Assembly (NCBI GenBank): GCA_017651645.1 | Contig: JAGCCO010000004.1 | Coordinates: 58,782-122,781, forward strand | Source: Bacteroidales bacterium | GTDB taxonomy: Bacteria; Bacteroidota; Bacteroidia; Bacteroidales; F082 | Direction: 5' to 3' | Length of the DNA stretch: 64,000 nt | In this document: positions 19,085 through 53,718 of the stretch, piece after piece | Layout of the letters: each line of letters starts with the position of its first letter | Numbering within the stretch: position 1 is the stretch's first letter | The notes under the pieces: generated by a model | Seen by the model: the letters and a program-made list of their open reading frames with translations, nothing else | What the model was told of the DNA's origin: nothing | Database searches by the model: none | Position numbers and translations under genes: made by a program

Positions 19085-19158
19085 GGTCTCTTCGTCTAGT
19101 CTGGTCAGGACGTCAGGTTTTCATCCTGGTAACTCGGGTTCAAATCCCGGAGAGACTA
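19085..19158 (+). tRNA. tRNA-Glu (anticodon TTC)
   Basis: A full cloverleaf can be drawn. The acceptor stem pairs GGTCTCT with AGAGACT (first pair G-T wobble), the D arm starts GTCTAG, the anticodon stem is TCAGG/CCTGG around the loop TTTTCAT (anticodon TTC), and the T arm is TCGGG-TTCAAAT-CCCGG. The discriminator is A at 19158. CCA is not encoded (CAA follows). Flanked by its own promoter and terminator. Confidence 0.95.
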
Positions 19159-50820: not shown

Positions 50821-51471
50821 ATGGAAAATCCGAAATTCGTTATCGCCATCAACCGTGAGTTCGGCTCGGGTGGCAGAGAGATCGCCTACAAGCTCGGCGA
50901 GCTGCTTGGTGTCAATGTTTACGACAAGGCCATTCTAGACACCTTAACCTCCAAATTCAACCTGACCGTTGAGGAAATGCAGCGCATCAAAGCCACCAAA
51001 CCCAACTGGTGGAATGACTTCTGCCGGTTCTATCAACAGTTCGGTGCTGCCGGACAGGGTGGATATACACCGCAAGAAGACCGTGAGGTGACCTCGCAAC
51101 AGATCTATCTTGCCGAGGCGCAAATTCTCCGCGACCTGGCCTCGCAGGAGTCGTGCGTCATCATCGGGCGTTCCGGCTTCCATGTCTTCAGAGACCATCC
51201 TTATGCCATGAGAATCTTCTTCATCGCCGACAGGAAAGCCCGTGTGAAACGCGTCATGGAAAAGTTTGCCTTGGACGAGGACGCTGCCAGCATGCGCATC
51301 GATAAAATCGACGAAGCTCGCGATACCTACACACAGGCTGTCGCTGGCGTGTCGCGTTATGATGCCCGCAACTACGACTTCGTGTTCAACGTCACACAAT
51401 TCCCCACCGACCTCGTGGCACAGTTTCTCGCCGACAACATCAGAAAGAAGTATCCGTTCATAGTGAAATAA
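50821..51471 (+). CDS. Cytidylate kinase-like family protein
   Basis: A 216-residue P-loop kinase-like protein. FVIAINREFGSGGREIAYKLGE (P-loop-like glycines about 16-19) and CVIIGRSGFHVFRDHP, FFIADRKARVKRVMEK match the cytidylate kinase-like family, distinct from canonical Cmk. The substrate is unproven. Many Bacteroidota carry this family in addition to true cmk. It lies upstream of pyrB but with its own promoter, and pyrB has another; a pyrimidine link is suggested only by position. Confidence 0.78.
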   Translation: MENPKFVIAINREFGSGGREIAYKLGELLGVNVYDKAILDTLTSKFNLTVEEMQRIKATKPNWWNDFCRFYQQFGAAGQGGYTPQEDREVTSQQIYLAEAQILRDLASQESCVIIGRSGFHVFRDHPYAMRIFFIADRKARVKRVMEKFALDEDAASMRIDKIDEARDTYTQAVAGVSRYDARNYDFVFNVTQFPTDLVAQFLADNIRKKYPFIVK

Positions 51472-51520: not shown

Positions 51521-51529
51521 TATCTTTGC
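51521..51529 (+). promoter_or_regulatory. Bacteroidota -7 box for the pyrB leader
   Basis: TATCTTTGC. Predicted +1 is about 51534-51536, at the start of the leader ORF. Confidence 0.6.
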
Positions 51530-51532
51530 AGT

Positions 51533-51652
51533 CCGATGAGATACCAAAACAAGCCATCGGAAAAGATTATCACCACGGAATCAATTGGTTCCATCAAAAC
51601 GAATTTCCTACTTTTTCATAATGACGGTCACTTTGTCGACCGTCTTTTTTTT
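51533..51652 (+). promoter_or_regulatory. Putative pyrBI transcription attenuator leader
   Basis: Between the promoter and pyrB are three hairpins: CCGATG/CATCGG (51533-51560), GGAATC/GGTTCC (51579-51594), and an intrinsic terminator at 51623-51652. A U-rich stretch (TTTCCTACTTTTTCAT) sits just before the terminator. The layout resembles the enteric pyrBI attenuator, in which RNA polymerase pauses at U runs when UTP is low and coupled translation blocks the terminator. Regulation by UTP is inference. Confidence 0.6.
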
Positions 51653-51679
51653 GCCAAGTTCAACAAATCAAATCGATAA
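51536..51679 (+). CDS. Putative 47-residue pyrBI leader peptide ORF
   Basis: An ORF from ATG 51536 to TAA 51677-51679, in a different frame from pyrB. It starts at the predicted transcription start, spans the U-rich run and the whole terminator hairpin, and stops 4 nt before the pyrB ATG. Enteric pyrL encodes a 44-residue leader peptide with the same topology. The encoded peptide ([10 protein letters not shown] at the start, [12 protein letters not shown] near the end) resembles nothing I know. Whether it is translated is unknown. Confidence 0.4.
51623..51652 (+). terminator. Intrinsic terminator inside the pyrB leader
   Basis: GACGGTC/GACCGTC, a perfect 7-bp stem with an 8-nt loop, followed by eight T. 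It lies upstream of pyrB, in a place where it would reduce pyrB expression unless overcome. Confidence 0.8.
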
Positions 51680-51683
51680 GCCT

Positions 51684-52604
51684 ATGTCAATTTCACTGAA
51701 AAACCGCAGCCTGATTTCCATCAGCGACTATACTCCTGAAGAAATCTGCCATGTTCTCGACATTGCCGAAGACTTCGAGAAAAACCCGCACCAGAACCTG
51801 CTGAACGGGCGCATCATCGCCTCGCTGTTCTTCGAGCCCTCCACCCGCACGCGCCTAAGCTTCGAGACCGCCATCCAACTCCTGGGCGGCAACGTCATCG
51901 GCTTCAGCAGCACCGCCGGAACGAGCATCCAGAAAGGCGAATCCCTCGCCGACACCATCACCATGGTGGCCAGCTATGCCGACCTCATCGTCATGCGCAA
52001 CCCTATCGAAGGCTCGGCCCGCTTTGCCTCCGAGGTGTCGAAAGTGCCCGTCATCAACGCGGGCGACGGTGCCAACCAGCACCCCACCCAATGCATGCTC
52101 GACCTCTACAGCATCCGCAAGACACAGGGTACGCTTGAGAACCTTGAAATCACTCTCGTCGGCGACCTGAAATACGGCCGCACCGTCCACAGCCTCGTGG
52201 AGGCCATGTGCCACTTCAACGCCAAGTTCAACCTCGTCTCGCCCGTAGAGTTGAAACTGCCGAGTGTGGTGAAGCAACACATCAAGGATCGTAACCTTGA
52301 ATACCATCAGTACACCGAGTTGGAGGATGCCATCCCCCACTCCGATATCATTTACATGACCCGTATCCAACGCGAGCGCTTCCCCGACCCCGAGGAATAC
52401 GAGAAGGTAAAGAACTCCTACGTGCTGCGCAATTACATGTTGGACGCCTCCAAGCCCAACTGCCGCGTGTTGCACCCGCTGCCGCGCGTCAACGAGATCC
52501 ACGTCGACGTCGACGCCAACCCGAAGGCGTATTACTTCCAGCAGGCACAAAACGGCGTTTACGCTCGTCAAGCCTTAATCGCATCAATCTTAGGACTTAA
52601 ATAA
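51684..52604 (+). CDS. pyrB: Aspartate carbamoyltransferase catalytic subunit
   Basis: A 306-residue catalytic chain that makes carbamoyl-aspartate, the first committed pyrimidine step. The carbamoyl-phosphate motif [13 protein letters not shown] is at about 49-61; [24 protein letters not shown] and HPLPRVNEI are present. ATG 51684 ([10 protein letters not shown]) gives the normal N terminus. The same frame is open upstream, including an ATG at 51621 inside the terminator, but that extension is not family-like. pyrI follows after 8 bp. Confidence 0.96.
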
Positions 52605-52612
52605 TCAGAACC

Positions 52613-53080
52613 ATGGAAAAAAAGAAAGAACTGACCGTTTCCGCCATTGAGAATGGCACTGTCATCGACCATATCCCCGCCGACAAAGTGTTCCAAGTCG
52701 TCAAGATTCTGGGCTTGGAGAAAGTCAGCAACCCCGTGTATTTCGGCACCAACGTGGAGAGCAAGAAATACGGCACCAAGGGCTTCATCAAAGTCTCCGA
52801 CAAGTACTTTGAGCCCGAAGACGTGAACAAGATTGCCCTCGTCGCCCCCACTGCCTCCATCATCGAAATCAAGGACTTCGAGGTCATCAAGAAGCAGACC
52901 GTGACCATCCCAGAGCGCATCGAGCATATCGTGAAGTGCTTCAACCCCAACTGTGTCACCAACAAGGAACACGACGTGCCGACCAAGTTCACTGTCGTCA
53001 AAGACGCGCAAGGCAACATCAAGCTGCACTGCCACTATTGCGAAAAGAACACCACACAAGACAAACTTGAATTCATCTGA
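52613..53080 (+). CDS. pyrI: Aspartate carbamoyltransferase regulatory subunit
   Basis: A 155-residue regulatory chain that binds nucleotides (CTP/UTP inhibition, ATP activation) and holds catalytic trimers together. The N-terminal allosteric domain (SAIENGTVIDHIPADKVFQV) is followed by a zinc domain with Cys about 110 (VKCFNPNC) and the pair in CHYCEKN. The four zinc Cys are present, so a regulated holoenzyme is expected, as in enterics. Confidence 0.95.
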   Translation: MEKKKELTVSAIENGTVIDHIPADKVFQVVKILGLEKVSNPVYFGTNVESKKYGTKGFIKVSDKYFEPEDVNKIALVAPTASIIEIKDFEVIKKQTVTIPERIEHIVKCFNPNCVTNKEHDVPTKFTVVKDAQGNIKLHCHYCEKNTTQDKLEFI

Positions 53081-53661: not shown

Positions 53662-53681
53662 ATGATACTCATATAAAACAG

Positions 53682-53715
53682 AATCGGGCGAGATCCTCAT
53701 GGATTTCGCCCGATT
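53682..53715. terminator. Bidirectional terminator between lemA and the esterase gene
   Basis: A 15-bp stem (AATCGGGCGAGATCC paired with GGATTTCGCCCGATT, one G-T) with loop TCAT. T-rich flanks on both sides fit terminators for both convergent genes. Confidence 0.85.
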
Positions 53716-53718
53716 TTA

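Follow-up and report, generated by a model that had tools for sequence, protein, structure and literature searches.

The question raised by this locus is what governs the transcription terminator that stands directly before pyrB, inside a short open reading frame that runs through it. The window (the whole 64,000-nt stretch of Bacteroidales DNA analysed here) carries pyrB and pyrI behind a leader that an earlier note had likened to that of Escherichia coli pyrL-pyrBI. The element is best understood, on sequence evidence, as a translation-coupled transcription attenuator of pyrBI that works much as the E. coli one does, a reading to which we give a probability of roughly 0.82. We take it to be functionally analogous to pyrBI attenuation, with a hairpin added at the 5' end.

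The leader and its neighbours

The features of the locus are collected in Table 1. Promoter box, 47-residue ORF, U-rich stretch and terminator are all present, as the earlier note had stated, and the sequence agrees with its further statement that the ORF overlaps the terminator and stops 4 nt short of the pyrB ATG. The leader ATG follows the promoter box by 7 nt; by eye, a -33 TTTG cannot clearly be made out where its spacing from the -7 box would place it.

Table 1. Features of the pyrBI locus, in window coordinates
Feature	Coordinates	Strand	Basis
Cytidylate-kinase-like protein (PF13189)	50821-51471	same strand as leader, directly upstream	profile match
-7 promoter box TATCTTTG (TAnnTTTG)	51521..51528	+	direct reading
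Predicted start region TCCGA	51532..51536	+	inferred from TAnnTTTG spacing and 108 background promoters
P1 hairpin at predicted 5' end	51533..51560 (51533-51538 with 51555-51560)	+	folding; same register in relatives
Leader ORF, pyrL-like, 47 codons	51536..51679	+	ORF list; ATG 51536, TAA 51677-51679
P2 hairpin, candidate pause hairpin	51577..51592 (51577-51582 with 51587-51592)	+	folding, alignment A1
U-rich stretch before terminator, candidate UTP-sensitive pause region	51604..51619	+	direct reading
Intrinsic terminator (putative attenuator), inside leader ORF	51623..51652	+	pattern scan, folding
pyrB, aspartate carbamoyltransferase catalytic chain	51684..52604	+	TIGR00670 368.2 bits, cut-off 236.95
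pyrI, aspartate carbamoyltransferase regulatory chain	52613..53080	+	TIGR00240 151.7 bits, cut-off 148.55; Pfam PyrI and PyrI_C

The terminator has a GACGGTC/GACCGTC stem (51623-51629 with 51638-51644), an 8-nt loop and a run of eight T (51645-51652); it folds at -12.1 kcal/mol (z -4.21), a stability equalled in 1 of 200 shuffles. The pattern scan that includes it found 8 sites against 8.3 in shuffled sequence, so the scan by itself is no proof of a terminator. Two other hairpins fold at -6.9 kcal/mol each: P1, with z -1.86 and 10 of 200 shuffles equally stable, and P2, with z -2.20 and 7 of 200. Neither P1, which takes the leader ATG of the window into its 5' arm, nor P2 figures in the earlier description of the leader. 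At gathering score no Rfam family matched within the leader; the sole match in the 64-kb window was a tRNA at 19085-19158.

Downstream of pyrBI lies a LemA protein, identified by profile, and 3' of its gene the pattern scan marks a 17-bp terminator-like hairpin (53680-53717), likely the end of a pyrBI-lemA transcript. Relatives differ from the window in the sequence found at the position of its cytidylate-kinase-like gene.

The open frame in close relatives

The sample of relatives comprises 81 loci, the window and L001-L080. The window shares its PyrB, at 100% identity, with a red-deer Bacteroidales MAG (L001), and 'bacterium F082' (L062) is among the close relatives; 'F082 clade' serves below as a working label for L001-L062 and L073. 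Promoter and leader start (TAnnTTTG, then YYG[AG]T) are found together in 62 of the 81 loci; of the remaining 19, L024 and L031 are truncated, L026 and L044 lack the promoter or have it altered, and 15 carry a more distant PyrB. Sequence 5' of the promoter differs between relatives, and the leader itself is kept.

Among the 62, the first ATG lies exactly 7 nt after TTTG in 58 (the exceptions are L015, L061, L063 and L077) and a T-run is present in 59. The earlier note had named absence of the leader ORF or terminator from close relatives as the outcome that would speak against it; the outcome is the opposite, the ORF reaching the T-run (to within 7 nt) in 53 of these 59. It stops inside the terminator hairpin in five (L035, L036, L040, L043, L045) and early in one (L037). 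Under the same rule the +1 frame is open in 1/59 and the +2 frame in 15/59.

Without the duplicates L036 and L055, and without L063, in which the script found no stem, 56 unique leaders are left. From the ATG to the first base of the terminator, stop codons number 1/1475 in frame 0, 127/1456 in frame +1 (many of them the TGA built into ATGA) and 64/1440 in frame +2. Fifty-five of the 56 are open to the terminator where dinucleotide shuffles predict 16.0, with the provisos that related sequences are not independent trials, that counts across taxa are likewise not independent, and that the thresholds for ORF reach, openness, promoter-terminator and 5'-end counts, here and below, are of our choosing. 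The excess argues that selection keeps the ORF open up to and into the terminator.

The peptide itself appears to be free to change. In a 22-sequence alignment from the window's clade, single-base codon differences in frame comprise 323 synonymous and 1223 non-synonymous changes (604 and 1284, and 356 and 1188, in the other two frames): no synonymous bias in frame, nor any codon-position signature, was found in these 22 sequences. The last codons vary among relatives, even the frame near the end, and ORF lengths range from 12 to 70 codons. A frame kept open around an unconstrained peptide is what coupling predicts if only the position of the ribosome matters.

In the 22 sequences of alignment A1 the terminator helix is 100% paired, with five of its seven pairs never varying, and P2 is paired in 99.2% of cells, with one pair changed on both sides. 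Covariation within this close clade is weak: the one two-sided pair change in A1 is reached by 23 of 500 shuffles and the two in alignment A2 by 363 of 500, and the covariation scores are reached by 13 (A1) and 27 (A2) of 500.

Other Bacteroidales

A PyrB search matched 197 of 198 genomes of the order. Upstream regions were taken from 110 places in these genomes (30 loci and 80 of 120 further listed places) and from 54 more in three families, 164 in all. Forty-four distinct leaders have a strict TAnnTTTG box and, 40-300 nt further on, a terminator near pyrB. With an ATG required within 60 nt and an ORF end at most 12 nt short of the terminator, the ORF reaches the terminator in 41 of the 44, where dinucleotide shuffles predict 11.7. 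Counted among the 41 are two closely related loci of the F082 clade, L111 and L112, and also L323, which looks by eye like the last part of an upstream gene. L148, L156 and L296 (13 nt short) fail the rule. With an earlier filter the count was 35 of 36.

Nine leaders of one family (L273-L276, L278, L281, L283, L284, L287) are not among the 44, since the script's rule yielded no terminator or no promoter for them; on manual inspection every one of their ORFs continues beyond the T-run and ends no more than 10 nt from the pyrB start used. Of five others inspected by hand, L294, L298 and L300 have ORFs that by eye enter or pass the hairpin, and L297 and L299 gave no clear reading. Leader peptides of different families are unrelated in sequence, again by eye. 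Leader and predicted attenuator, as an arrangement, recur in several families of the order with unrelated sequences.

Diagnosis by motif failed: the pattern TTTGCANNYYGATG matched in 20 of 20 genomes, and the motif alone is therefore not diagnostic. In a phylum sample of 148 genomes, the PyrB matches listed, save G005's own, are at most 44% identical to the PyrB of the window, which suggests two types of aspartate carbamoyltransferase in Bacteroidota.

Other pyrimidine genes were searched for the same order of P1, ORF and terminator. None was seen in the printed regions of 15 pyrE loci from 16 genomes (L221-L235, with the gene start misplaced in at least L225, L227 and L229), nor in those of 12 pyrD loci (L253-L264), most of which lie, by eye, behind a pyrK-like frame. 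At L253 a terminator stands directly before the frame next to pyrD; it may be the end of an upstream gene or another attenuator. The carA model TIGR01368 scored above cut-off in 1 of 16 genomes (loci L237-L252), against 15 of 16 for the pyrE model; weaker carA matches fall in frames of about 540 aa, which from their size may be CTP synthase.

U-rich stretches and classes of leader

The U-rich stretch of the earlier note is present in the window and enriched in long leaders; it is not universal. In 46 long leaders U makes up 0.48 of the last 30 nt ahead of the terminator and 0.24 of the sequence further upstream. Ten short leaders (L033, L035, L037-L043 and L045) are without the stretch; this type is shorter by about 39 nt (13 codons) and also has no P2 partner.

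Two classes of leader can be told apart. Class I has a pyrimidine-tract start (YYYR), with the ATG mostly at offset 7 or 9 and often a P1; class II has no YYYR, the ATG is often further in, and P1 is at most as frequent as background. Runs of at least five U within 40 nt before the terminator occur in 12/21 class II leaders, 23/46 long F082 leaders, 9/27 other class I leaders and 0/10 short F082 leaders. In another family (L313, L314, L316, L303-L305) runs of 7-9 U lie shortly before the terminator and, by eye, after a hairpin; they resemble the pause region of E. coli pyrBI.

The predicted start site and the P1 hairpin

The F. psychrophilum start-site mapping places TAnnTTTG at -12 to -5 (PMC9723704). 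In 108 background promoters a pyrimidine stands at offset 3 in 74% and a purine at offset 4 in 62%; this step, with the spacing of the box, puts the predicted modal +1 at offset 4. By that rule the modal start in the window would be C51533, the base at which the 5' arm of P1 begins; it would lie within a pyrimidine tract (51532-51534), with G51535 and A51536 as candidate purine starts.

YYYG is present in 23 of 23 unique 12-nt starts and in 3 of 108 background promoters, YYG being part of the selection pattern. A larger comparison took 104 unique leaders, of which 55 belong to the F082 set and 49 do not, and 276 background promoters. YYYR at offsets 3-6 is found in 81 of these leaders: 55/55 of the F082 set, partly by selection, and 26/49 of the others, which were not selected for it, against 21/276 in the background. 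Pairing of the 5' arm exceeds 95% of mononucleotide shuffles in 34/55 F082 leaders, 15/26 other YYYR leaders and 1/23 non-YYYR leaders (background 9.1%). YYYR, hairpin and an ATG at offset 4-13 come together in 49 of 104 leaders and in none of the 276.

Often the predicted first bases of the RNA pair with an arm further on, and the hairpin then covers the leader AUG or encloses it. The position of P1 is more constant than its sequence. Its register is the same in relatives, with exchanges of CC/GG for TT/AA. Other arms at the same place are CTGATAT/ATATCAG (L307), CCGATAT/GTATCGG (L312), CTAGAAT/ATTCTAG (L270), TTAGAAT/ATTCTAA (L322), TCTAGA/TCTAGA (L273 and kin) and CCGGT/ACCGG (L319). An ungapped stem of at least 5 bp that includes offset 5 is present in 22 of 25 YYYR leaders from beyond the clade and absent from L277, L280 and L286; its outer end lies at offset 3-4 in 17 of the 22 and at 0-2 in five (L177, L183, L197, L282, L288). 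When the initial 48 nt of 39 leaders that do not belong to the clade are folded, the mean z is only -0.31, because many of these leaders are without P1. In 50 unique starts of the F082 clade, pairing falls off outward from offset 5 to offset 0 (50, 46, 39, 23, 10 and 4 of 50); inward, it extends to offset 7, the A of AUG, in 35 and to offset 10 in 29, so that this A is unpaired in 15.

Stability depends on where the RNA begins. Moving the start from offset 4 to offset 6 changes the mean folding energy of 58 loci from -5.8 to -1.7 kcal/mol, and in the window P1 goes from -6.9 kcal/mol (start 51533) to -2.2 (start 51535). As far as sequence and folding go, then, the leader has what a pyrC-type switch would call for: a pyrimidine start, a purine 2 nt on, and a hairpin that is weaker from the purine.

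How the proposed attenuator would work

Transcription would begin just before or at the leader ATG. A ribosome translating the leader close behind RNA polymerase would cover an arm of the terminator and allow read-through into pyrBI; where no ribosome follows closely, the terminator would form. This coupling step, in which the ribosome on the leader controls the terminator, is well supported by the comparison of leaders. That pyrimidines are what is sensed is likely. Start sites, translation, termination, response and sensor are all deduced here from the DNA.

Sensing may depend on pausing at U-rich sequence, as it does in E. coli, on the choice of start site acting through P1, or on both. Pyrimidine shortage would slow the polymerase at the U-rich stretch after P2 and so favour read-through; and/or it would let a ribosome load before P1 closes, or shift the start so as to avoid P1. 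The place of P1 at the 5' end suggests that pyrimidine sensing may differ from that in E. coli. Weakening of P1 by a start 2 nt later suggests a pyrC-like switch of start site that feeds a pyrBI-like attenuator. With ample CTP and UTP, the RNA would start in the pyrimidine tract, its 5' end (UCCG or CCG) would fold P1 over the AUG, the leader would go untranslated and the terminator would form. When pyrimidines are scarce, initiation would move 2-3 nt downstream to G or A, and the RNA would begin (G)AUG and lose P1; a ribosome would load on the leaderless AUG, follow the polymerase and prevent termination. A start-site-switched, leaderless attenuator of this kind is possible but less likely than not. 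Against the attenuator reading as a whole stands the rarity of short 5' UTRs: in B. thetaiotaomicron those below 10 nt amount to about 3.7% (PMC7366714), and in F. psychrophilum leaderless transcripts make up 5.5% of mRNAs (PMC9723704). On the same side are the ten short leaders with no U-rich stretch, L032 and L034 with P1 but no terminator, the want of a synonymous bias in frame, the weak covariation, and the fact that promoter and terminator together were seen in only 44 of the 164 upstream regions from other Bacteroidales.

Alternative explanations

A real attenuator might sense general translation capacity or an amino acid, not pyrimidines. Attenuation by leader peptides has been proposed for amino-acid operons of F. 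psychrophilum (PMC9723704), and the short leaders do without the U-rich pause stretch. The possibility is nonetheless an unlikely one: the gene controlled is pyrBI, no common run of one codon is visible across leaders by eye, and pyrimidine-tract starts and U-rich stretches point to NTP sensing.

If the terminator were controlled by a riboswitch or by an RNA-binding protein, whether of the PyrR type or another, the ORF would be incidental. Protein-controlled pyr attenuators do occur in Gram-positive bacteria, and a 5' hairpin that is conserved ahead of a likewise conserved terminator might be bound in this way. Such control would not require the strongly kept open frame, however, and P1 varies in sequence by lineage while its position stays constant; with no Rfam match at gathering score, we regard it as quite unlikely.

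The arms of P1 might instead be a DNA operator, bound by a repressor that overlaps the start site. An inverted repeat at a promoter invites this view, and in 5 of the 22 stem-bearing leaders outside the F082 clade the stem extends 5' of the predicted RNA start. It is very unlikely, given that arm spacing and sequence vary between lineages, that the stem ends at offset 3-4 in the other 17, and that pairing in the F082 clade falls off where the RNA should begin.

That the terminator simply ends the upstream cytidylate-kinase-like gene and leaves pyrB unregulated is highly improbable. That gene does end only about 150 nt before the terminator, and several other Bacteroidales upstream regions look, by eye, like an upstream gene with its own terminator; here a promoter box intervenes, the leader is constant where the sequence 5' of the promoter is not, and the ORF is held open into the terminator. 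A functional small protein is scarcely credible as the product of the leader ORF, even though the 85-aa leader found in one other family has 11 similar proteins in the database, when the 22 sequences of the window's clade have no coding signature, lengths and ends vary as described, and families share no sequence by eye.

Relation to known systems

A translation-coupled attenuator of pyrBI has its closest parallel in E. coli K-12, where pyrL (44 codons against 47 here), ending 3 nt (4 nt here) before pyrB, runs through an intrinsic terminator that follows a U-rich stretch, in a pyrB-pyrI operon like that of the window; the topology proposed earlier is thus borne out in anatomy. Unlike E. coli, the present leader would have its AUG in the first bases of the RNA, with the P1 hairpin upon it, and it has a TAnnTTTG promoter, a pyrimidine-tract start and short versions without the U-rich stretch; by eye, its sequence does not resemble pyrL beyond the Phe codons that come from U-runs. 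The arrangement apparently arose independently of the E. coli switch; PMC7818426 describes both the UTP-dependent pausing and the attenuation of the latter.

A second parallel lies with pyrC and pyrD. Here, as there, a pyrimidine start would allow a 5' hairpin and a purine start 2 nt later would weaken it; the difference lies in what the hairpin would block, here a terminator-controlling leader ORF and in pyrC and pyrD the enzyme gene itself. L032 and L034 are perhaps a pyrC-like exception: they have no terminator and retain P1 directly before pyrB (last 44 nt), where it may act on pyrB translation itself. The alternative starts of pyrC in E. coli and Salmonella are 2 nt apart. In pyrC and pyrD of these bacteria CTP shifts the start, and RNA begun at C forms a 5' hairpin that blocks ribosome loading (PMC7818426); effects of NTPs on start choice are also treated in PMC5730371.

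With the leaders here, the PyrR-controlled pyr attenuators of Bacillus share a terminator in a pyr leader; in the present case there is no Rfam match, and the feature kept is an open ORF. Within Bacteroidota, sORFs in 5' leaders have been proposed to mediate attenuation (PMC7366714, PMC9723704), and leader-peptide-like sORFs are reported in B. thetaiotaomicron (PMC7366714); in the parts of these papers available, they precede amino-acid operons or a hypothetical gene, not pyrB. Judged from listings of open-access literature, there is no report of a pyrB attenuator in Bacteroidota, which is not proof of absence.

Implications

The pyrBI attenuator proposed here would extend repressor-free attenuation of pyrimidine genes to a phylum whose main sigma factor differs and in which very short 5' UTRs are few, and it would imply tight coupling of transcription and translation in Bacteroidales. 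If the start-switch reading is true, the principles of pyrC and of pyrBI are joined in one element, and leaderless translation gains a regulatory role. As the leaders are short, divergent and present in several families, start-site choice, leaderless initiation and coupling become testable in anaerobic gut bacteria.
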